Source: Candidatus Poseidoniales archaeon (GTDB lineage: Archaea; Thermoplasmatota; Poseidoniia; Poseidoniales; Poseidoniaceae). Taken from it: a stretch of 56,734 nt of DNA. The notes under the pieces were generated by a model that ran no database searches, was not told the origin of the DNA, and saw only the letters and a program-made list of their open reading frames with translations. Within the stretch, counting starts at the first letter, position 1, and every line of letters begins with the position of its first letter. Position numbers and translations under genes: made by a program. The stretch spans positions 1 through 56,734 of the forward strand of contig QQRY01000056.1 in NCBI GenBank assembly GCA_003602575.1, read 5' to 3'. Positions 33,489 to 46,953 of the stretch are shown piece by piece.

Positions 33489-33626
33489 AATTTGTTCAGG
33501 GTAATCTAGAAAATCCCCTGATTTGAGCCAAATCACTTGATTATTGCATACATAATGTGATTTTTCAATATTTTTACCAAATTCAAACAAGCGGGTATTT
33601 CATAGGTGGTATGCCGATTAGCCAGC

Positions 33627-36182
33627 ATGGTCGCGAAGCGATTCATTGTGCTGGCTTTGGCCGCGCTGATGATTTCATTTACGCCACCAGTTTCGGCAGA
33701 CAACAGTCTTCAAAGCGCTAATATCCTTGCTGAAGGTGTATCTTCGGGGGGCTATGTTTGTTATGATGATGGCTGTTCACCAACGGATGAAGTTGATTGG
33801 TGGAAAATTTATGCCTACAAAGGAGATATTGTCAGTATAGCATTCTCCGGAAACATACCAAACCCTGAATTTTGGTGCATTGATGATGGATGGGAAGGTG
33901 ATTACTCAATTCACGATTCTGGTGGTGGACAAATAGCATCTCTGTCTATGAGTGATGATAACCCATCAGGAACTCTGAGTAAAACTATGTCTTCTGCAGA
34001 TTGGGTTTATGTAAAAATTAAGGGCAAAGATAGTTGGTGTAATGATGCAATTCAATATACGTTAACTGCATCGATTGATTCTGGCGATAGAGATACCGAT
34101 GAAGATGGATTTATCGATACAGAAGATGATTGCGACAATGTCCCAGGCACTTCCCTCTATGATAGGAAGGGATGTACAGATTCTGATTCAGACGGTTACT
34201 CTAATCCAGAATTAGGATGGGGTACAAATAACGGTGCTGATGCTTTTGCAAACGAGCCTACACAATGGCAAGATACCGACAATGACGGTTATGGAGACAA
34301 CGTAGATGGTTTCCAAGGAGATTTCTGCCCCTTCAAGAGAGGATATTCATCATTAGATAGATTTGGTTGTCTAGATAATGATGGTGATGGATATTCTGAT
34401 GCAGACCCTGGCGGCCTAGATGGAATCACTGAATGGTTTGCCCATCCTGTTGGTCTAGCCGATGCATTCCCTTATGATGAAACTCAATGGACCGATACTG
34501 ATGGTGATGGATATGGAGATAATTGGGAAGATGGGAGTTGGAATGAGACCCATCAAGCTTGGGGAATTGGCCAGTGGCTGATCAATGCAACTCAGCCAGA
34601 TGCCTGTCCATTTATCACAGGTACATCATATAGCGATAGATTTGGATGTACAGATTCAGATTCTGATTCGTATTCAGATGGTGATGTCAATTGGACTGTA
34701 GAAAACGGTTCAGATGCATTCCCTACCGAGCCATCTCAATGGAATGATAGAGATTATGATGGCTGGGGAGATAACCAAACCTTTGGAGCATTATTCATCG
34801 ATGACTTCCCTGATAACCCAACTCAATGGAGGGATACAGACAAAGATGGTTGGGGCGACAATCAAACCTATGGAGCAACCCAAATCGACGATTTCCCGTT
34901 TGTTGAATCACAGTATAGAGATACAGATGGCGATGGTTATGGAGATAATTTGTTTGGCTTTGAAGGAGATGTATGTGTCTATTCTACTCCAGAAGAAGTT
35001 GAATCTGGCTGGATCTCTATGTTTGATAGATTAGGATGTAGAGACGTAGACAAGGATGGTTATTCCAACCCTACAGAAGATTGGATTGCTCATCCTGATG
35101 GATTTGCTGATGCTTTCCCTGATGAGAGAAGCCAATGGCACGATACAGATTCCGACGGTTTTGGCGACCAAATGGAATATTTTGATGGTCAAACATGGCG
35201 TGAATCATTTAGAGGAGACGGCTGTAAAACCACAGTAGGTTCTTCCACTTTTGATAGATGGGGCTGTCCAGATACAGACCTTGACGGATGGTCAGATTCT
35301 ACATCTACTTGGCTAGCAAGTCCCGGAGGTTCGGGAGATGCTTGGCCTGAGGACTCCACACAATGGCATGATAGAGATGGCGATGGAAGAGGCGACAATC
35401 CTCTAGGTACTACTGCTGATGTTTGCCCAGATGATGCTGGAACTTCGGTCGGGCCTGCTGAAGGTGGAGATAGTTGGGGCTGCATCGATACTGATGGCGA
35501 TGGTTGGTCGGACCTAGGCGATATGTTTGATCATGAACCAACTCAGTGGAGAGATAGTGATCGTGATGGATATGGTGACGAAATAAATGGAAACCAAGGT
35601 GATGCCTGTCCTGAATTACCTGGAACTTCAATCCTAGACCGCTTAGGTTGTAAAGATACAGATGGCGATGGTTGGTCAGATCCAACTGATTCATGGCAAG
35701 CCCATCCATTTGGCGCTGCGGACTCTTTCCCCAATGAAGCATTACAATGGCGAGATAGTGATGGTGATGGTTTTGGTGATGTTGCTTTAGGCTCGATGAG
35801 GGATGATTGTCCTTCTGAGGCTGGTGATTCAGTTAGAGATTTACAGGGCTGCCCTGACGCTAATGGCGATGGTTGGTCGGATGATTACGGTGGCTTGAAA
35901 GCAGCGATTGCAATTTTAGGAGAAGACCCAGCAGCCTCTTGGCTAACCTATCTTATTATTGGATTTGGTTTCATTATTGGAGCATTATTGGCATTACTAG
36001 TCAAGATGTCTAGGGAAGAAGATGTACTTACCGAAGAAGAATTGTTTGAATCAAAACAACCTGCTGATTTTGAAACATTGACCCAAGAGAATATTCCTTC
36101 TGAGGGGATGATTCCATTAGAGCAATTACCTCCCTTACCCTTACCTCAACAAGATTTACCAGGAGGTGAAATGAATGAGTGA
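33627..36182 (+). CDS. surface protein with PPC-like domain and TSP3-type repeats
   Basis: An exported 851-residue protein, first gene of a coupled three-gene operon. Signal peptide residues 1-24 (LALAALMISFTPPVSA). Residues about 28-155 resemble a PPC (pre-peptidase C-terminal) beta-sandwich: DEVDWWKIYAYKGDIVSI then ADWVYVKI. Residues about 155-760 are long TSP3-like modules with the consensus DTDGDGYGDN then CP...GTS..DR.GC.D.D.DGYSD, in which two cysteines per module probably pair. A single helix near 772-792 and a 55-residue acidic tail follow. A GTG at 33606 is in frame, but the ATG at 33627 gives the natural signal peptide. An interrupted palindrome lies at 33530-33563. Confidence 0.85.
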   Translation: MVAKRFIVLALAALMISFTPPVSADNSLQSANILAEGVSSGGYVCYDDGCSPTDEVDWWKIYAYKGDIVSIAFSGNIPNPEFWCIDDGWEGDYSIHDSGGGQIASLSMSDDNPSGTLSKTMSSADWVYVKIKGKDSWCNDAIQYTLTASIDSGDRDTDEDGFIDTEDDCDNVPGTSLYDRKGCTDSDSDGYSNPELGWGTNNGADAFANEPTQWQDTDNDGYGDNVDGFQGDFCPFKRGYSSLDRFGCLDNDGDGYSDADPGGLDGITEWFAHPVGLADAFPYDETQWTDTDGDGYGDNWEDGSWNETHQAWGIGQWLINATQPDACPFITGTSYSDRFGCTDSDSDSYSDGDVNWTVENGSDAFPTEPSQWNDRDYDGWGDNQTFGALFIDDFPDNPTQWRDTDKDGWGDNQTYGATQIDDFPFVESQYRDTDGDGYGDNLFGFEGDVCVYSTPEEVESGWISMFDRLGCRDVDKDGYSNPTEDWIAHPDGFADAFPDERSQWHDTDSDGFGDQMEYFDGQTWRESFRGDGCKTTVGSSTFDRWGCPDTDLDGWSDSTSTWLASPGGSGDAWPEDSTQWHDRDGDGRGDNPLGTTADVCPDDAGTSVGPAEGGDSWGCIDTDGDGWSDLGDMFDHEPTQWRDSDRDGYGDEINGNQGDACPELPGTSILDRLGCKDTDGDGWSDPTDSWQAHPFGAADSFPNEALQWRDSDGDGFGDVALGSMRDDCPSEAGDSVRDLQGCPDANGDGWSDDYGGLKAAIAILGEDPAASWLTYLIIGFGFIIGALLALLVKMSREEDVLTEEELFESKQPADFETLTQENIPSEGMIPLEQLPPLPLPQQDLPGGEMNE
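34087..35890 (+). repeat. TSP3-like long-module repeat region
   Basis: About a dozen repeating modules of roughly 40-60 residues, each with one or two calcium-loop words (DxDGDGxGD) and a CP...GC cysteine pair. The same module type recurs in the FG-GAP protein at 39100-45381, so the two genes share a domain family. Confidence 0.7.
36162..36169 (+). promoter_or_regulatory. strong Shine-Dalgarno sequence before the gene at 36175
   Basis: GGAGGTGA is a full match to the archaeal 16S rRNA 3' end and lies five bases before the ATG inside the end of the preceding gene. It shows that internal operon genes use ribosome binding sites, unlike the leaderless first genes. Confidence 0.7.
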
Positions 36183-37494
36183 GAATAAAATTAGTAAGAG
36201 TTTGATGATACTCATGATTTTACTAACTTCTCTAATGGTTCCTCAAATTTCTGGTAGTGTATTTGCCGAGGAGAATGATGAAGAAGATCCGCTCGGCGAT
36301 GCTGGGTTGACATTAATTGCGCTTCGAAATGACACATTGGATACTAATCAAGATGGAGATATAGATTCGATTAGAGTCGTTGTTGTCATGTCTACAACAA
36401 ATGATTTTGTAAATCTAGAATTAAGACTATTTGGAGTGCATAAGGGGCAGCAAGTAGTTGAAACCCAAATAATGTCTTTTAGTGGCCAATCAAATGCTAG
36501 TCTTACTTATGATTCATGGGCTAATGGCGAACATGAATTGAGTCTTGCTATAATTGATGAAGCGGGTGATGAGATCACTACTTTTGAATTACCAACTTAC
36601 TTGCTAAAGCCTGCATTGAAAACACCAAGAGTAATGTTGGCATTAAATGCTCCAGAAAACATTGAAACTGGCGATCAATGTACTATTAACAGGATTTTTG
36701 ATGATGAAACAGGTCCTAGATATGGCGCTGATGGAACTAGAACATTTTCGGGGGCACCATTCACGGTATTAGATTCTCAAGATGTTTTAGATTGTTCTCA
36801 CTGGCCAGCTGGCGATTATACGCTAAGAGAGACTTATCGTAATGATCTATCACAAACAGCAGAAGACTGGTTGAATTTAACAATCTCGAATCGTCCTGCT
36901 CCTGCATTTTCTTTACTAACCGAAGGAAACGGTAATTCTACAGATACAGATTGTTCAGTCACTATAATTCCCGATTCCCCTGACATTGATTTCACTCCAT
37001 TCGTTAAGATTTGGAGAATCCAAGGAGTAATTTTCCAAGATTATAATTCATCAAATTTCGATTGTTCGATACTTCCTGCAGGAGTTCATCTGGTTTCTAT
37101 TGAAGTAATCAATAATGAATTGATTCAAACAATCCATGCGATTAACATGGTTAGACTCCCTGGATTGAATTTGACTGAGGAAGAAGCAGAGGTATTACCA
37201 TCTCGTTCCTTTGGAGAGGATACTGAAACCGATTCAGTGGGATGGATTTCAATAGGTATCCTTTGTTTTGTAGTCGCTTTATTGGCATTTGTTTTCTTGG
37301 TAAGAGTCAAAGACGAAAAGGATATTTTTGAAATGCGGGATTTAGGTCCAGAACCTATGATTCTAGCAGATGGATCACCTGATTCTCAAGGCCTACCAAC
37401 TACTGTTGATGATGAAGGAGTTCTTTGGCGACAACACCCAGATGGGGCCCACGATTGGTGGGACCAAGACCTAAGAATCTGGAATAGGTGGTGA
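36175..37494 (+). CDS. membrane-anchored surface protein with Trp-rich cytoplasmic tail
   Basis: A 439-residue exported protein, second in the operon. Signal peptide residues 1-31 (LMILMILLTSLMVPQISGSVFA), three or more beta-sandwich-like domains with paired Cys (QCTINR/LDCSHW, TDCSV/FDCSIL), a helix near 355-378 and a cytoplasmic tail of about 60 residues. The tail ends with GVLWRQHPDGAHDWWDQDLRIWNRW-like Trp spacing (cores GVLW, DGAHDWW, WNRW), which resembles the C-terminus of the soluble protein at 3077-3772. A near-perfect Shine-Dalgarno GGAGGTGA (36162-36169) lies five bases before the ATG, and the gene overlaps the previous stop by 8 bases. Function unknown. Confidence 0.8.
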   Translation: MSENKISKSLMILMILLTSLMVPQISGSVFAEENDEEDPLGDAGLTLIALRNDTLDTNQDGDIDSIRVVVVMSTTNDFVNLELRLFGVHKGQQVVETQIMSFSGQSNASLTYDSWANGEHELSLAIIDEAGDEITTFELPTYLLKPALKTPRVMLALNAPENIETGDQCTINRIFDDETGPRYGADGTRTFSGAPFTVLDSQDVLDCSHWPAGDYTLRETYRNDLSQTAEDWLNLTISNRPAPAFSLLTEGNGNSTDTDCSVTIIPDSPDIDFTPFVKIWRIQGVIFQDYNSSNFDCSILPAGVHLVSIEVINNELIQTIHAINMVRLPGLNLTEEEAEVLPSRSFGEDTETDSVGWISIGILCFVVALLAFVFLVRVKDEKDIFEMRDLGPEPMILADGSPDSQGLPTTVDDEGVLWRQHPDGAHDWWDQDLRIWNRW

Positions 37495-37498
37495 AGTT

Positions 37499-38380
37499 CT
37501 GGAAGTTCTTGGCATCGATGTTCTAGGTAGTATTTGGTCAATAATTCTAATATCTTTCATCGGTATTTTTCTTTTATGTCTACTTATTTGGGTCGTCAAA
37601 GTTTTACCAAAAAAACCCCGTGAAGGCGTGGTATGGAATACAGACTGTGAATTCCAATCAAGGGCAATAGTTGACGGTGACAATGTCACTTTTACTAAAG
37701 TTAGAAACTTTTTTTGGAGAACTACAAGAGATAGAGACGAAAATTGGGATGATAATATTACTGTTAATGTCGAGGAGATCAAAGATGTATGGTTTGTAGT
37801 AGACCATTTCCATAAGATTCATGGCTTAGCACACACCTTTCTAACGATAGAATTCAATGATGGAACTTGTCTTTCCTTTTCGTTTGAGGCAAGAAGAATC
37901 AAGGGTCAAAGATATCACCCTTGGGATGGAATGTGGAGAAATTATGAGTTATTTCTATTGGTTGGACATGAAAGTGATTTACTCGGACTGAGAACTAATG
38001 CTCGGGGGAATAAAGATTACATGTTTAGAGCAATAACCCCGCCTGGAAAAGAAAAACAATTACTGAAGGGATTGGCCAAGAGTATGAATTCATTAATTGA
38101 CGACCCAATTTGGTATCACTCTCTACTCACTACATGTAATACATCAATAGTCAAATTAGTGAACAAAGTGACTCCAGGAAGAATTCCTTTCTTCCTTAGG
38201 AATTTCTTACCAGGATATACCCCTAAAGTAGCTTTTAAGCTGGCCTTAATTGAGGATTGGGGCGGCTTTGAAAAGACTCTAGAACTAGCAAGAATAGATC
38301 AAAAAGCAATGCTCTGGGATGGAAAGGGCGACTACTCTGAAATGATTCGCTCTCACTTACCGGCTTCTAAAAATAAGTAA
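37499..38380 (+). CDS. DUF4105 (Lnb N-terminal-like) membrane protein with apparent CTG start
   Basis: Third gene of the operon. The first ATG/GTG/TTG in frame is a GTG at 37628 (250 residues), but the open frame upstream encodes an obvious membrane helix (SIWSIILISFIGIF then LLCLLIWVVKVLPKKP) that belongs to the protein. Between the stop at 37472-37474 and 37628 the only plausible start is CTG at 37499. GGTGGTGA lies four bases before it and overlaps the previous gene's TGA. That gives 294 codons. The domain matches DUF4105: DNVTFTKVRNFFWRT, HTFLTIEFNDGTCLSFSFEARRIKGQ and YELFLLVGHESDLLGLRT. The family includes the N-terminal domain of lipoprotein acyltransferase Lnb; activity here is unknown. 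A sequencing error at the start codon is the alternative. Confidence 0.7.
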   Translation: MEVLGIDVLGSIWSIILISFIGIFLLCLLIWVVKVLPKKPREGVVWNTDCEFQSRAIVDGDNVTFTKVRNFFWRTTRDRDENWDDNITVNVEEIKDVWFVVDHFHKIHGLAHTFLTIEFNDGTCLSFSFEARRIKGQRYHPWDGMWRNYELFLLVGHESDLLGLRTNARGNKDYMFRAITPPGKEKQLLKGLAKSMNSLIDDPIWYHSLLTTCNTSIVKLVNKVTPGRIPFFLRNFLPGYTPKVAFKLALIEDWGGFEKTLELARIDQKAMLWDGKGDYSEMIRSHLPASKNK

Positions 38381-39099: not shown

Positions 39100-42000
39100 A
39101 TGGCGAGTGTTAACAAGGGCAAAACCTCGCTAGTTCCCAGCCTGATAGTGATTATTTTTTTACTTCAATTGATGTCTCCCTTGATGATTCAAAACTCTAA
39201 TGAAGATAGTAATTTGACTCAATCAGAAGCATCTTTCACTCATCCATATGCGAATGTTGATACAATTCTATATGGTCATGATTTTGCGGGAAGTGAAATC
39301 TCTATCGATGGATTAGATAATGCAAAAGTAAGGGCAGAATCAGCTCTAGATCTTTGGGAGAGTCATTTGATATTGAATGCTAATAATCAAACACCAGGGA
39401 CTCCCGATATTGAATTTACAGGATATCAACAAATCGAGATATGCTGGAGCACCCTTGAAGGACAAGTTAGGACTTATTCACGAAACATATCCGGTTTTGA
39501 AACTTTGATGCACGTCGATGATGTAGGTGCGTCATCCAACTTGGAAGAACTAGTTGACTGTGCTCTTGCTGTCAAGAAAAATGGTAGAAAAACCCTCCTT
39601 TATGCAGATGGAACAAATTTGAAGGCAGCTCAACTCGCACTCCAGAGTTCTTTGTATTCTCAAGGAGATACTTGGCATACTAGGACAATTTTAGAAAATG
39701 TTAACGTCACACATATTGAATTAGCAGTATCTTCTTCTGATTTGGAATGGGGTGTATACAGAAATGATCTAGGTCAATTAATCGAAATCAGTTTTACTGG
39801 CACTTTTTGGCAAACTAGATTACTGGATAACGGACCCATCGGCCAAGATATCGAATTACACATCGATGAAAGCGATATGATCAGTATTCTTTATTCTAAA
39901 TCAAACGATGCAATGATGATTAATATTGATTCAACAGTAAATGGCACAATCTCAAGAGAAGCGATTCTAACCGATGTAGAACTTCATTCACAAATCGGTC
40001 TAGATTTTGACGGTGATGGGTTGGCCCAAATTTCAACATCAACGTTTGATGGAAACAACTCTACAATTACTCTTAAGCGAAGTTTGGCCAATAATAAAAA
40101 TCAAATCGACCCAATACCAGATTTGTCTCTTTGGGCAGGAGCAGTATCTTTGGGGCAAGTCGCAGGAAATACTGTTCATGGTGATTTTAATCAAGACGGG
40201 TTTAGTGATTTAGTTATCTCTCAACCTGAACTGAGTACGTGGATTTCATCAGATCCATCGAATTCTTTAGTCGGTTCATCTAATGGCCAAGTAGATGTAT
40301 ACTATGGTTCCCAAAACGGACTTCATAACAATACAGATTTGGAATACTATGGTGAGCAAGATAACCAAGAAATGGGACATGGCCTTACTGTTGGAGACTT
40401 TAATGGCGACGGATTTAGTGATTTAGCGGTTGGTTCACCAGGCTATAATCAAGACGATGGAATGGTTGAAATTTTCTTCGGCTCTTCATCAGGTTTAGCC
40501 ACGACTTCAGAAATAATTCCTGGGGTTTCTATACCCTCAACTAGTGGCCAAGAATATGGCTCTTTACTAAGAACTGTTGAAGATTTAGACGGAGATGGAA
40601 ATGATGAGTTGCTGATTCTTTCGCTTGGAGATGATAGTTTCGGGCAACTAGAATTATTCCACGGGTCATCACAAAGTGATAGTTGGGGGACACTACAATC
40701 TCCCGCGCAATCTACGCAAGCTTCATTCTTTGGGCGTTCAATGTCAACTTCAGGAGATATTAACAATGATGGCTTCGATGATTTAATTGTTGGAAATACA
40801 GGCAATTTAGATAGTCCAACAGGGTATTCCTCGGTTGAAATTTTCCATGGTACCTCAAATGGATTTTCATCTCAGAGTAACAGTCATGTCCAGTCTAATC
40901 TTCAGGGAACTTTATTTGGCTATGAAGTCGAAATTGTGGCTGATATTAATGGAGATGATTATGACGATGTATTCATCTCTGAACCATATAATGGCTCGAA
41001 TGCTTATCAAAGTGGCAAGGTGTGGGTATATTTGGGTAATTCCTTAGGTGTAGCCGGTCTGCCCGATCTAAATCTTACCGGGCAGATAAACGAACTAATT
41101 GGCTTGAATGTATTATCAGCGGGAGATACAAATTCTGATGGTTTTAATGATGTATTTATCACTCATTCAGGTTCATACACAACCGGTAGCGCTGAATTAT
41201 ATCTCGGTTCTTCATCAGGCTTGCAATCTCAACATTATACTGTTGTAGAGGGCGGTGGTAATGCTGCATTAAGTGCAATTTCAGGTGCAGATTTCGATGG
41301 TGATAGTGTTGAAGACTTTGTATTTAGTCAAGAGGTTACAGATTCCTTGAATGGCCAATATGTCGTCTACAATATCCATTCTCGTAATTTATGGGAAAAT
41401 CGAGAATTTTCTGTTGTTGGAGAGTTAGAAAGTCTTGACTTAGCCTCATCATCCTCAGGTAAAACAAATATTTTATTGTCATCTAATGTACAAAATTCTA
41501 CGATTACCACTCTGCTGGAAAATGCTTTTGATGGCTCATCCTCAGGAGATTGGTTAGAACATACATTGACTGATTTGAATCATAATAACTCATCGAGTTC
41601 TTTGGCAGTATCTTCATCAGGTCTTCCATACGTGGTCATTTCTGATGACCATAATGGAGTAGTTCTCAGAATGCCTAAATCTATGACTGCTTTAGAAAAT
41701 AATATACAAAATTTAGGTACCATGCCTCAATTCATCGGTCAAGCAATAGATTTGTCTAACAGACAACATATCGCTTATTCTACTACATCTAATACTCAGG
41801 TTTTTGTCAATAAAGAAACTACTTCTGGATGGACCTTTGAAAATATTAGAAGTTCTGTTTCAATTGCATCACCAATAGATGTATTGACAGATAGTAATAA
41901 TTCATCTCATATAATTTACAGAGATTCTGCTAATCAACAATTAGAATATGCATTTTACCTAAATGGATGGAACATCCAAAATTTAGGCACTTCGGGACAA

Positions 42001-45000
42001 GCAGCATCGACATCACATACCTCAATATGGTTGCCAAATGGTGATTTAGCGATTGGATTGATTGAGTTTGATGGTAATAATCACAATCTTAGTATGTGGA
42101 CTTGGAATGGTACAGTTCTCAATAGTTCAGTAATTAGGTCAGAAGCGGACTTGGCGACAAATATTCAAATTCGTATGACAGATGATGGTACGATTATACT
42201 AGCAGCATTAACCTCATCTGGCTCTCTTAGCCTATATGAGCGAATGTGGGATCAAACAACATGGAATGGAGTTTTAATCGATCAACCTAGTGGTGATAGT
42301 TCAGATATGTCATTTGATTTAATCGGCGGTCAAAATCCAGCTATGGCTGTAAGGTCTGATTCAAATTCAATCTATGTAAGACAGGCTTCACAAACATGGA
42401 TTTCAATGATAAGCCAACCGAATTCTTCACCTCAAGGGACATGGAGTTTATCTCAAATAGATACCCATTATATATTGTTTACAACCGACTCTGATTCAGG
42501 ACAGTTACAATGGAATTCAGTTGAAAAGAACGGCATTCATGATAATTTTGCTCCCTGGTTTAGTCAAACCTTTAATGGATTGATTACAGACTCAAAGGTT
42601 ACGCCTCTATTTGATGGAAATGGTACATTGAAAGTGGCTACTATTGATGAAATACAAAATAAGATTATTTCACTAAACCTTTACTTAGATTCCGATAGAG
42701 ACTTAGTGTTTGATAGAATTGACGACCTTCCTTACTTATCTGGGCAATGGTCTGATGGCGATGGAGATGGTTATGGAGATAGTATTCTTGGTCCACAATA
42801 TGACTCTTGTCCTCAAGAAAATAGAACTTCATCTCTAATTGTATTTGGCTGCAATGATTATGATGATGATGGTTATGCTGATACAATAGACACTTGTAAT
42901 AACATTCGCGGATTTTCATGGTTAGGGAGAACTGGATGTGGTGATTTTGACCAAGACGGTTGGTCAGATAACAAGATATCATATCAGGGTGGAGACATAT
43001 TCACCAATAATTGGAAACAGGTCTTTGATAGCGATGGAGATGGTTATGGCGACAACCATGGCCCTGATTGTTGTACCACCTGGTATGACGCTAATGCTCA
43101 ACCTGGTGATGCATTCCCATATGATTACAAGCAATACTTAGATTGGGACGGTGATGGATTTGGAGATAATACATCGGACTTAATTGGAGGAGATAGATGT
43201 AGATTTGAATTTGGTACTTCAATGTATGACAGAAATGGATGTTTAGATTCTGACTTTGATGGATATTCAGATCCAAGGCCAGATTGGACATTAGAAGATG
43301 GCGCAGACATGTGGCCATTCGATCCTACTCAATGGGCTGATAGTGATGGAGATGGATATGGAGACAATAGTTCACTTGATGCAACTAATCCAGATGCCTT
43401 CCCGAATAATATTGCAATAGTTAACGATTCGGATGGTGACGGCTATCCTGATAACTTCACATCATTTTACAATGGAAGCAATGCTAACGGAATCTATCTT
43501 GATGGTTGCCCTCTAGTGTTCGGGAATTCTTCCGACCCGTTATTTGGCTGCCAAGATAGCGACGGCGATGGTTTCATGGATTTGTATTCTTATGACTTAA
43601 ATTCAACAACCAATCTAAGAGAAAATCAATCCGGTGATGCATTCCCGTTAGATGATACTCAGTGGAAAGATACTGATGGCGATGGCTTTGGCGACCAGCA
43701 ATTTGGTTTCCAACCAGATATTTGTCCTTATGAATTTGGAGTCCTAGATGGCACTCTCGGAGTAGGTTGTCGTTTGATTGATGGCAATGATGATGATGGT
43801 GATTTCGTGATCAATGATGAAGACACATGTCCAAATACAGATGCAGGATTAATTGTTGACTCTTTTGGTTGTGCTCAAAATCAAATTGATGATGACGGAG
43901 ATGGAGTTTTCAATGATGCAGATTTATGTGATTTAACACCTGTAGGGGAAACAGTCGACTCTATTGGTTGTACTCAAGCTCAAAGGGAAGTAGATGATGA
44001 TGGAGATGGTGTTTTCAATTTCGAAGATTCTTGTTCAAATACTCCATCAGGAGAAGTAGCAAACCAGTTTGGATGTTCGCCATCACAGCGTGATACAGAT
44101 GCAGATGGAGTATTGGATTCTGTTGACAGCTGTCCTGAAACACCACAGAGTTACCCAGTTGATGAATTTGGATGTACAGATAATAATGCTCTAAACTTTG
44201 ATTGGGACGGTGATGGCCGTCTAGGAGTTTACCAATATGATTTAGAGGAAAATTCGACTATTAGAATTAATCAGCAAGGCGATTTATATCCATTTGACGA
44301 GACTCAATGGTGGGATAGCGATGGCGATGGTTATGGAGATGAACCAGATGGTACAAATGCTGATGATTGTAAATTAGAGAATGGGACCTCATTTGAAGAT
44401 AGAGTTGGTTGTTTAGATTCAGATGGAGATGGATGGTCTGATCCAAACTCTAATGATAATTGGTTCGCCCACCCCAGTGGCCAAGCAGATGCCTTTGCCG
44501 ATGATGAAACTCAGTGGCGCGATAGCGACGGTGATGGATATGGTGATAATCAATCTGGAAATAATCCGGACCTTTGTTTCGATAAATCGAAGCCGAACAA
44601 TTTTGTTGGCGAAGTTGACTCAAATGGTTGTAAAGCCAATGAGAGAGATACTGACTCTGATGGAGTACCTGATAGTCTTGACAACTGCCCTAATGATGCT
44701 AAAGGAATAAACGGATACGTTGATGGTTGCCCACTGGAAACTCAAGATAATGCCAATGAATCAATCGAAATATTAGGGATGGGTATCTTAACTTTCATTC
44801 TTGTTTGTGTATCTTCTCTTGTTGGAATTATTATTGTCATCTCCTTTATTCGAAGAAGAGGCGAAGAGGATTGGTTTGATGATGACGAAGAAGACGATGA
44901 TTATGAAGAAGATTATCAAGAAGATAGACTGAGTTTCCTTAAAGACTTACGTTCCAATAGAAATTCTGCCACTTCAAACCCAGGTCCTTCTGGAGGACCG

Positions 45001-45381
45001 CCAAGAAATATTCCCTCTGCTAGCAGAAATGGCCCTTCAGGCGGCCCACCTAAGCAAAGACCCATGCCTATGCAAGAGCAACGCAGCTCAATCTCACAGC
45101 CAGTTAGTTACCCTAGAGAAAGGTTTCAAAGCGATGTTAGCACTTCTACGAAAGAAAAATCTGCTACAAAAACAGGAAAGAAGGTTCGTAAAGCTAAATT
45201 AGAAGTTGATTTGGATATTTTTGAAGGAGTTGAAGATAGCCATAGAGATTCTGCTGTTGATTGGGTCTTAGAATCACTTTCTGAAGACGCTTCTGAGCGA
45301 GAAATATTGATGCGGCTTCAGGGTAATGGTTGGAATGCCCCTCAATCTCGGGCGATAATTAATCTTGCTAAAAACAGATGA
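39100..45381 (+). CDS. giant FG-GAP and TSP3 surface protein with long cytoplasmic tail
   Basis: 2093 residues, the largest gene here. Signal peptide residues 1-35. The N-terminal domain (to about 340) is followed by about seven FG-GAP/integrin-alpha-like blades (345-760) with calcium loops: GDFNQDGFSDLVI, GDFNGDGFSDLAVG, GDINNDGFDDLIVG, ADINGDDYDDVFI, GDTNSDGFNDVFI. A second beta-propeller-like stretch reaches about 1200. TSP3 modules with CP...GC cysteines run to about 1885, then a helix (1893-1915). The roughly 175-residue cytoplasmic tail has an acidic run, SGGPP repeats, a Lys-rich part and a C-terminal helical domain (VDWVLESLSE, ILMRLQGNGWNAPQSRAI). Likely adhesion or substrate capture; the tail suggests an inside partner. 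Leaderless start plausible. Confidence 0.87.
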   Translation: MASVNKGKTSLVPSLIVIIFLLQLMSPLMIQNSNEDSNLTQSEASFTHPYANVDTILYGHDFAGSEISIDGLDNAKVRAESALDLWESHLILNANNQTPGTPDIEFTGYQQIEICWSTLEGQVRTYSRNISGFETLMHVDDVGASSNLEELVDCALAVKKNGRKTLLYADGTNLKAAQLALQSSLYSQGDTWHTRTILENVNVTHIELAVSSSDLEWGVYRNDLGQLIEISFTGTFWQTRLLDNGPIGQDIELHIDESDMISILYSKSNDAMMINIDSTVNGTISREAILTDVELHSQIGLDFDGDGLAQISTSTFDGNNSTITLKRSLANNKNQIDPIPDLSLWAGAVSLGQVAGNTVHGDFNQDGFSDLVISQPELSTWISSDPSNSLVGSSNGQVDVYYGSQNGLHNNTDLEYYGEQDNQEMGHGLTVGDFNGDGFSDLAVGSPGYNQDDGMVEIFFGSSSGLATTSEIIPGVSIPSTSGQEYGSLLRTVEDLDGDGNDELLILSLGDDSFGQLELFHGSSQSDSWGTLQSPAQSTQASFFGRSMSTSGDINNDGFDDLIVGNTGNLDSPTGYSSVEIFHGTSNGFSSQSNSHVQSNLQGTLFGYEVEIVADINGDDYDDVFISEPYNGSNAYQSGKVWVYLGNSLGVAGLPDLNLTGQINELIGLNVLSAGDTNSDGFNDVFITHSGSYTTGSAELYLGSSSGLQSQHYTVVEGGGNAALSAISGADFDGDSVEDFVFSQEVTDSLNGQYVVYNIHSRNLWENREFSVVGELESLDLASSSSGKTNILLSSNVQNSTITTLLENAFDGSSSGDWLEHTLTDLNHNNSSSSLAVSSSGLPYVVISDDHNGVVLRMPKSMTALENNIQNLGTMPQFIGQAIDLSNRQHIAYSTTSNTQVFVNKETTSGWTFENIRSSVSIASPIDVLTDSNNSSHIIYRDSANQQLEYAFYLNGWNIQNLGTSGQAASTSHTSIWLPNGDLAIGLIEFDGNNHNLSMWTWNGTVLNSSVIRSEADLATNIQIRMTDDGTIILAALTSSGSLSLYERMWDQTTWNGVLIDQPSGDSSDMSFDLIGGQNPAMAVRSDSNSIYVRQASQTWISMISQPNSSPQGTWSLSQIDTHYILFTTDSDSGQLQWNSVEKNGIHDNFAPWFSQTFNGLITDSKVTPLFDGNGTLKVATIDEIQNKIISLNLYLDSDRDLVFDRIDDLPYLSGQWSDGDGDGYGDSILGPQYDSCPQENRTSSLIVFGCNDYDDDGYADTIDTCNNIRGFSWLGRTGCGDFDQDGWSDNKISYQGGDIFTNNWKQVFDSDGDGYGDNHGPDCCTTWYDANAQPGDAFPYDYKQYLDWDGDGFGDNTSDLIGGDRCRFEFGTSMYDRNGCLDSDFDGYSDPRPDWTLEDGADMWPFDPTQWADSDGDGYGDNSSLDATNPDAFPNNIAIVNDSDGDGYPDNFTSFYNGSNANGIYLDGCPLVFGNSSDPLFGCQDSDGDGFMDLYSYDLNSTTNLRENQSGDAFPLDDTQWKDTDGDGFGDQQFGFQPDICPYEFGVLDGTLGVGCRLIDGNDDDGDFVINDEDTCPNTDAGLIVDSFGCAQNQIDDDGDGVFNDADLCDLTPVGETVDSIGCTQAQREVDDDGDGVFNFEDSCSNTPSGEVANQFGCSPSQRDTDADGVLDSVDSCPETPQSYPVDEFGCTDNNALNFDWDGDGRLGVYQYDLEENSTIRINQQGDLYPFDETQWWDSDGDGYGDEPDGTNADDCKLENGTSFEDRVGCLDSDGDGWSDPNSNDNWFAHPSGQADAFADDETQWRDSDGDGYGDNQSGNNPDLCFDKSKPNNFVGEVDSNGCKANERDTDSDGVPDSLDNCPNDAKGINGYVDGCPLETQDNANESIEILGMGILTFILVCVSSLVGIIIVISFIRRRGEEDWFDDDEEDDDYEEDYQEDRLSFLKDLRSNRNSATSNPGPSGGPPRNIPSASRNGPSGGPPKQRPMPMQEQRSSISQPVSYPRERFQSDVSTSTKEKSATKTGKKVRKAKLEVDLDIFEGVEDSHRDSAVDWVLESLSEDASEREILMRLQGNGWNAPQSRAIINLAKNR
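42757..44735 (+). repeat. TSP3 repeat region of the FG-GAP protein
   Basis: Some fifteen TSP3 modules. Most are the long kind with GTS..DR.GC spacing shared with the gene at 33627. Four consecutive short modules (about 43800-44170) are the TPxGxxVxxxGC kind shared with the YHYH protein. One gene thus mixes both subtypes. Confidence 0.65.
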
Positions 45382-45447
45382 ATAGGTTTACTGGTAGACA
45401 TGGTTTTCATAAGATGAGCATTCAGCGTGGGTTAGTGAGGGATTGTT

Positions 45448-46953
45448 ATGGCTGGTGATGTTCTTGAAGGTGCTTCTTTACCAGATGGTATTGAGGTCGA
45501 CGAGACAGCAGCATATTTCGGTATCACAGAATCTTCAGACATAGTTCACCAATTGATGGAGATGGATTTTTCAAATGCGTTGACTAAATTCTTTGAGAAG
45601 GTTTCTGACATTGTTTTACTGCCAGGGGAATTTGATTTTGAAGCAGCGAGTGAACGTATGAATTGTGAGGGAGGTGAAATTTACTTCTTAGTTGCAGGGC
45701 ACTTAGGTTTGATGAGTTTCACCGATCCACTTCTTGGATTTATTGGATTGCCAAATTCACTTGGAGAAGAATCATCTAACTCTAAGCCAGATGTGAGCGA
45801 TTCCGAGTTTGAGTCTTTAACTCGCTTAGCAGATCCTATGAGGATTTTGAAACTGCTAGCAATTGCTCAAGAAACAGGAGGTAGCGATGAGATTTTGAAA
45901 TATTATCATTCACTCAATGATATGTTTTCCAATCCACAAGATAATCTCCAATCAATTATTCAAGTCGCTGACCAATTGGACGCCTCATTGGATGTTATTG
46001 GTCATGCAATACCAGTAACGGAATTATCTCAATCTTCGGTATCAGTACCTAAAGCAGCACCATCGGTATCCCCGGAACCTCAGCCAACCATTGTTGCTGA
46101 TGTTCCTACAAAGTCTAGTGAAATTCCGCTTCCAAATAAATCATCATCTTTAGATTCTCAAGAATCGGTACCTTTGCCAAATTTTAGTCAGCCAAAAGTA
46201 GTCGAAGTTGAATCCAAACCTGTAATTCAAGAAGATGTTACAGATAGAAAGGCGGCTAAAGTCACACAAGATGCTTTTGATGGTGCATTTGGAGTTGATA
46301 TCCCTATCCAGAGTTCTCCAAATTCAGAGCCAGAACCGGAGCCAGAACTGGAACCAGAACCAGAACCGGAACCAGAACCGGAACCGGAACCAGAACCGGA
46401 ACCCGAGCCAGAGCCAGAGCCAGAACCTGAGCCAGAACCTGAACCGGAACCATTTGTTAGCGTAGCAGAACAATTTATCGAGGCTGATACTGACAAGGAT
46501 GGAACACTATCTGTAGAGGAACTTTCCGAAGCTACAGGCTTATCGATTGAAGACTCTCAAGAATTACATTCTAAAGCGGACTTAGATAATGATGGTTCTT
46601 TATCACTTTCTGAAGTATTAGCGTCTCCTGCTGCAGAGAAATTATCTTCCCTGCCAAGACCAGTATCCCCTGTTCGCAGGCCGGTAAACAAGAGAGAACC
46701 AGAACCTTCTCCTGAACCAATTATCCAATCTCCTCAACAACCGGTCCAAAGAAGTCAACCGATTCAGCAACACCCGCAATATCCACAGCCTCAACCACAA
46801 CCTATCCAAAGACCACAACCTGTTAATCAACAACCTTGGAATCAACCAGTTCAACCTACTATTCGTTCGGGAGTAATGTGTCGAGCATGTGGCATTGGCC
46901 TTGACCCATACTGGAGATATTGCCCAGTATGTGGCGGACAAAATCTTGGCTGA
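45448..46953 (+). CDS. soluble EF-hand / Glu-Pro repeat / zinc-ribbon protein
   Basis: A 501-residue cytoplasmic protein with no signal peptide or helix in the membrane. Residues 1-180 are a helical domain I do not recognise, and 180-290 are a Pro/Ser-rich linker. Residues 294-335 are 21 Glu-Pro dipeptides (one is Glu-Leu). Residues about 345-395 hold two EF-hands, [12 protein letters not shown] and [12 protein letters not shown], with all calcium ligand positions filled. A Pro/Gln-rich stretch follows, and the C-terminus is a zinc ribbon ([20 protein letters not shown]). GAGGG about seven bases before the ATG is a ribosome binding site. It follows the giant FG-GAP gene by 66 bases and may be its calcium-sensing cytoplasmic partner (inference). 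Confidence 0.82.
46327..46452 (+). repeat. Glu-Pro coding hexanucleotide tandem repeat
   Basis: 21 copies of a GARCCN unit (GAACCA, GAACCG, GAGCCA, GAACCT), 126 bases. Third-position variation shows it is partly aged. Such tracts change length by slippage, so strain-to-strain length variation is expected. Confidence 0.9.

Follow-up and report, generated by a model that had tools for sequence, protein, structure and literature searches.

The window analysed here, a stretch of 56,734 nucleotides from Ca. Poseidoniales, encodes a giant surface protein and, next to it, a soluble adaptor-like protein. Our preferred reading, which we hold at about an even chance, is that they make up a lineage-specific, vertically inherited surface-adhesion locus, in which the giant ends in a portable cytosolic module and its cytosolic partner, the adaptor, is a probable tether at the inner face of the membrane. 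The giant would bind particles, other cells or the organism's own surface layer in a calcium-dependent manner, a role proposed for its outside part because of what its domains do elsewhere. The adaptor would lie at the inner membrane face as the cytosolic partner that tethers or clusters the giant, a role suggested because the two are co-inherited, adjacent and co-divergent; the contact itself may, more tentatively, be made between the giant's end module and the adaptor's N-terminal domain. Such a combination of a conserved adhesin-like protein, a cytosolic module and a partner family would amount to a concrete link from the cell surface to the interior. It would also offer a testable entry into the attachment to particles and cells of the Poseidoniales, which rank with the most abundant surface-ocean archaea and had no cultured members when described in 2018 (PMC6461757).

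The strongest evidence for the pairing comes from its distribution. Of 319 genomes from the order, 180 have the adaptor domain, 181 the tail end module and 175 both, such that 175 of the 186 genomes holding either hold both. The exceptions are confined to two genera: five genomes with the adaptor domain and no end module all belong to g11, and six with the end module and no adaptor domain all belong to g2. A class-wide profile search for the adaptor domain returned the same 180 genomes and none of the 21 outside the order; likewise, for 390 genomes drawn across the phylum, the end module was not among the matches listed from outside the order. Relatives picked up with the adaptor domain belong to Ca. 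Poseidoniales (Marine Group II), and the MG-II chromosome CM001443 (L151) is one of them. The tree of the adaptor-domain gene mirrors the split into two families, f1, read as Ca. Poseidoniaceae, and f2, which would correspond to Ca. Thalassarchaeaceae. In 59 of the 60 loci read, spanning both families, the end module terminates the gene directly upstream of the adaptor on the same strand, usually with a gap of 50–90 bp. Thus, the adjacency on which the preliminary description depended holds in the relatives, and the recurrence of the same two proteins in the same layout is not due to chance. Linkage and vertical descent alone can nevertheless explain much of it. A contig labelled as an uncultured Rhodobiaceae bacterium (L182) bears a Poseidoniales adaptor gene and is probably from a mislabelled bin, and two bins contain two giants or two adaptors each (G002:C56 and C71; G102:C1 and C54), with contamination as the likely cause.

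The giant has the following layout:

39100..45381 (+): giant surface protein, 2093 aa, predicted type I single-pass membrane protein (ORF, Pfam, hydropathy, orthologues)
39133..39189 (+): signal-peptide-like hydrophobic segment, residues 12-30 (hydropathy)
39997..41199 (+): FG-GAP blades, about residues 300-700, with six DxDxDG calcium loops (Pfam, motif count)
42754..44709 (+): TSP3-like rod, about residues 1219-1870, with 18 DxDxDG loops (Pfam, motif count)
44785..44841 (+): transmembrane helix, residues 1896-1914 (hydropathy)
44863..44925 (+): acidic run next to the membrane, residues 1922-1942, shared by orthologues from both families (orthologues)
44926..45198 (+): flexible linker, Pro/Gly/Ser-rich and then Lys/Arg-rich, residues 1943-2033 (orthologues)
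45199..45378 (+): helical cytosolic end module, residues 2034-2093 (alignment, structure prediction)

By its repeated DxDxDG loops and significant Pfam matches (FG-GAP, 1.2e-16; FG-GAP_3, 4e-10; TSP_3, 1.6e-6), the giant is classed with the TSP3/FG-GAP surface proteins. The loops number 6 in residues 1-1200, 18 in 1200-1890 and zero in the tail, and the hydropathy profile displays a hydrophobic N-terminus (12-30) and one transmembrane segment (1896-1914). Along the 180-residue cytosolic tail there are an acidic run, a pair of SGGPP repeats and a Lys/Arg-rich stretch, and its end domain is helical. The ORF, Pfam and hydropathy therefore agree with the earlier picture of an FG-GAP/TSP3 protein with a long tail of just this composition. 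TSP3-type surface proteins of Ca. Poseidoniales have been proposed to function in adhesion in passages of Rinke et al. 2018 (PMC6461757), and the giant is probably one of the thrombospondin-type proteins counted there; the passages searched make no mention of EF-hands, cytoplasmic domains or a partner gene. No paper describing the giant-adaptor pair was found in the mostly open-access literature covered, including work on integrin-like and archaeal EF-hand proteins.

A parallel might be struck with the integrin alpha chains, which likewise combine FG-GAP blades bearing outside calcium loops with a single transmembrane segment and an inside tail, and whose talin-type cytosolic partners resemble the inner-face role envisaged for the adaptor. 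Unlike integrin alpha, the giant has no GFFKR-type motif after its transmembrane segment, where the tail reads VISFIRRRGEEDWF; it bears a TSP3-like rod rather than thigh and calf domains; and the end module and adaptor domain resemble no known fold found here. An identification of the giant as an integrin was rejected on the grounds of the missing GFFKR motif and the different outside domains, and the likeness is used as an analogy only.

The order of the tail elements, namely transmembrane segment, acidic run, Pro/Gly-rich and basic linker, and end module, is common to both families, with the linker conserved between relatives in composition and not in sequence. The end module has eight residues invariant in 60 sequences (F8, L40, Q41, G44, W45, Q49, S50 and I53), is predicted by AlphaFold2 to be helical in the relative L061 (pLDDT about 80-91) and has no significant match to a known family in sequence searches against Pfam and PDB profiles. 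Its retention by orthologues, on which the preliminary description had staked its proposal, is seen on every complete giant orthologue read. In two g9 genomes a broader module profile crosses one TAG (G051:C58:23062-23244 and G207:C101:17894-18076); in the first of these (L046), the giant's frame stops at that TAG within the profile match, and because the frame ends just there the TAG is probably the true end.

The adaptor is a multidomain protein:

45448..46953 (+): cytosolic adaptor-like protein, 501 aa, with no transmembrane segment or signal (ORF, Pfam, hydropathy)
45448..46050 (+): N-terminal all-helical domain, found only in Poseidoniales (profile searches, AlphaFold2)
46306..46455 (+): Glu-Pro repeat rod, about residues 287-336, varying between relatives (ORF, relatives)
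46468..46620 (+): EF-hand pair, residues 341-391, missing from three lineages (Pfam)
46873..46938 (+): C-terminal zinc ribbon, residues 476-497, conserved in both families (Pfam, relatives)

With zero transmembrane segments by hydropathy and EF-hand matches above the Pfam cut-offs (EF-hand_5, 3e-8; EF-hand_1, 2.5e-7; two stretches each), it accords with the earlier depiction of a soluble protein with two intact EF-hands, a Glu-Pro rod and a zinc ribbon, the ribbon matching weakly (DZR, 0.018; Zn_Ribbon_1, 0.046) and its CxxC...CxxC pattern being kept in almost every complete relative. Conservation across both families is seen for the N-terminal domain and the ribbon; the Glu-Pro rod is the part that varies most, and many relatives of the same genus lack it altogether. 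The N-terminal domain is all-helical by AlphaFold2 (pLDDT 85, pTM 0.79), and neither PDB nor Pfam profiles yielded anything significant for it (best PDB profile E 0.036; best Foldseek hit against PDB at E 0.48, probability 0.20). Matches to Rotamase_2 and TAL effectors were dismissed as weak and covering parts only, those to NCBIfam models and Trypan_PARP as below cut-off and lying within the Glu-Pro rod, repeats or EF-hands, and two weak PHROGs matches as falling over or next to the rod.

The docking of the end module on the adaptor's N-terminal domain was approached through a linked chain of the two, with the intergenic stop codons read as Ser, which is a computing device and not a real protein; the same frame is present in the window and 21 relatives, and the row folded was L061. 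The resulting model (22-row alignment, no PAE) had a pTM of 0.60, with a disordered linker (pLDDT <50) and well-predicted helical module and domain. This value is about what two unlinked domains would give and therefore lends docking no support; with only 22 rows and no PAE, it does not exclude it either. Thus, the complex prediction, proposed as a check on the coupling, did not come out in its favour, in that no confident interface emerged from this single chain. A fold search with the linked model gave a best E of 0.22. The structure and binding of these two small domains would be measurable from synthetic genes.

Co-divergence offers a second line of evidence. Given two neighbouring control genes, the pairwise distances of the giant's outside part correlate with those of the adaptor domain at partial r 0.64 (n=40) and 0.70 (n=25), and those of the tail at 0.51 and 0.54. 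With the peptidase as covariate, the kinase control likewise correlates with the adaptor or the giant (partial r 0.29-0.47, p 0.001), and therefore the permutation p values are not to be taken at face value. The giant and adaptor co-diverge more than the neighbouring controls, against a null that is not clean.

Further surface genes lie upstream of the pair:

33606..36182 (+): single-pass surface protein of 858 aa, rich in DxDxDG, with synteny across both families (synteny, hydropathy)
36175..37494 (+): single-pass surface protein of 439 aa, with synteny across both families, co-occurring with the adaptor (synteny)
37372..37491 (+): WW-like motif at the cytosolic end of the 439-aa protein, LPTxxDExGxLWRQHPDGxxDWWDxxxxxWxxW (conservation)

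Both families have the 858-aa and 439-aa genes and a kinase upstream and a peptidase-like gene downstream. It is conceivable, though unlikely, that the adaptor acts for this surface cluster as a whole, or chiefly for the 858-aa and 439-aa proteins. The giant would then be a common client that can be done without, and Pro-rich segments of the adaptor would be contacted by the WW-like end of the 439-aa protein. The five g11 genomes fit this: they retain the adaptor along with the 439-aa protein and flanking genes, the end module was not found in them, and their listed matches to the giant are confined to its repeat region, with none in the N-terminal half. In one of them (L051) the adaptor directly follows a thiamin pyrophosphokinase gene, with the 439-aa and 858-aa genes kept upstream. 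Moreover, among the tested f2 genomes, those without the cluster also lack the 439-aa gene (G039 excepted), its WW-like cytosolic end is strongly conserved, and adaptor relatives keep Pro-rich and Gln/Pro-rich segments. However, no co-divergence with the adaptor beyond the controls is seen for the 439-aa protein (partial r 0.14), its gene is placed several genes upstream of the adaptor while that of the giant is immediately adjacent, and the WW-like motif is not its own, recurring at the cytosolic C-termini of other surface proteins in this genome and in G094. These ends, W...DGS..WW......W and variants, occur on several TSP3-type and other surface proteins (L193, L194 and L195 in G000; L197 in G094), where they follow one transmembrane segment and a Gln/Pro-rich linker. 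Between the surface genes and the kinase, 37628-38380 (+) encodes a Lnb_N-domain protein (1e-17), with similarity in part of the loci. Scans for sigma-70 promoters and terminators gave chance levels, sigma-70 being the wrong promoter type for an archaeon.

Genus g2 speaks most directly to the autonomy of the end module. In the loci read there, it caps a membrane subtilase (L091, L092) and a surface protein of about 840 aa (L109, L110, L112), in each case after a transmembrane segment, and the adaptor was found in none of the six g2 genomes bearing it. Judged by these copies, the module is portable between surface proteins in g2 and, because it caps these other proteins, may be able to act without the adaptor. 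In a tree of the short module (about 62 positions) the g2 copies nest among sequences of the f1 genus g12, which tentatively suggests that it moved laterally into g2 from a g12-like source. The same observations could be accommodated if there were no coupling at all, the giant and adaptor being neighbours by common descent and the module a general sorting, stability or membrane-insertion tag, and the recurrence of a different small end motif on several surface proteins is of a piece with this. We consider it improbable in view of the nearly constant joint presence or absence of adaptor and module, the adjacency kept in both families, and the co-divergence of giant and adaptor beyond their neighbours. 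Extending the preferred reading of an inner-face tether, the interchangeable end modules of Poseidoniales surface proteins (the LQxxGW..QSR type and the WW-like type) might dock to dedicated scaffolds like the adaptor; this is a doubtful proposal which, if true, would mean that archaea have a transmembrane adhesion system that uses adaptors on the inner face and consists of domains without known relatives. In G194, a second surface protein (L111, 1-1476) also has a distant copy of the module (E 3.5e-5) at its C-terminus.

The place of calcium inside the cell can be judged from the EF-hands. The adaptor is comparable to prokaryotic EF-hand proteins of the calmodulin kind in being soluble with a canonical pair of EF-hand loops, and differs from them in that the pair sits between a helical domain lacking known relatives and a zinc ribbon and is evolutionarily dispensable. 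Most f1 genera have the pair, as do the f2 genera g5 and g7, while no Pfam EF-hands were detected in the adaptors of g9 (L046, L082), g19 (L076, L078) and g11 (L051). Since g9 and g19 keep the giant, the EF-hands are not needed for the function of the pair there. From these comparisons calcium sensing appears not to be the core function, the EF-hands acting rather as an optional regulatory add-on to the adaptor, and calcium signalling is the least supported step of the mechanism. The original proposal of an outside calcium adhesin coupled to an inside calcium adaptor thus survives in part: the pair is co-inherited and adjacent, but the inside calcium half fails in three genera, and the coupling is qualified by the adaptor without a giant in g11 and by the module on unrelated proteins in g2. 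True calcium signalling along the lines first envisaged, in which binding outside leads to a rise in cytosolic calcium that the EF-hand adaptor passes on, is the least probable account, for although the window's adaptor and those of most genera have two canonical EF-hand loops and the giant's outside part has calcium-loop motifs, the EF-hands are lost as above and no kinase, channel or chemotaxis-like partner for such a relay is seen in the locus. Several genomes of the same genus also encode another protein, of about 420 aa, whose EF-hand pair resembles that of the adaptor (e.g., G004:C94:21199-21399 and G020:C7:49145-49354).
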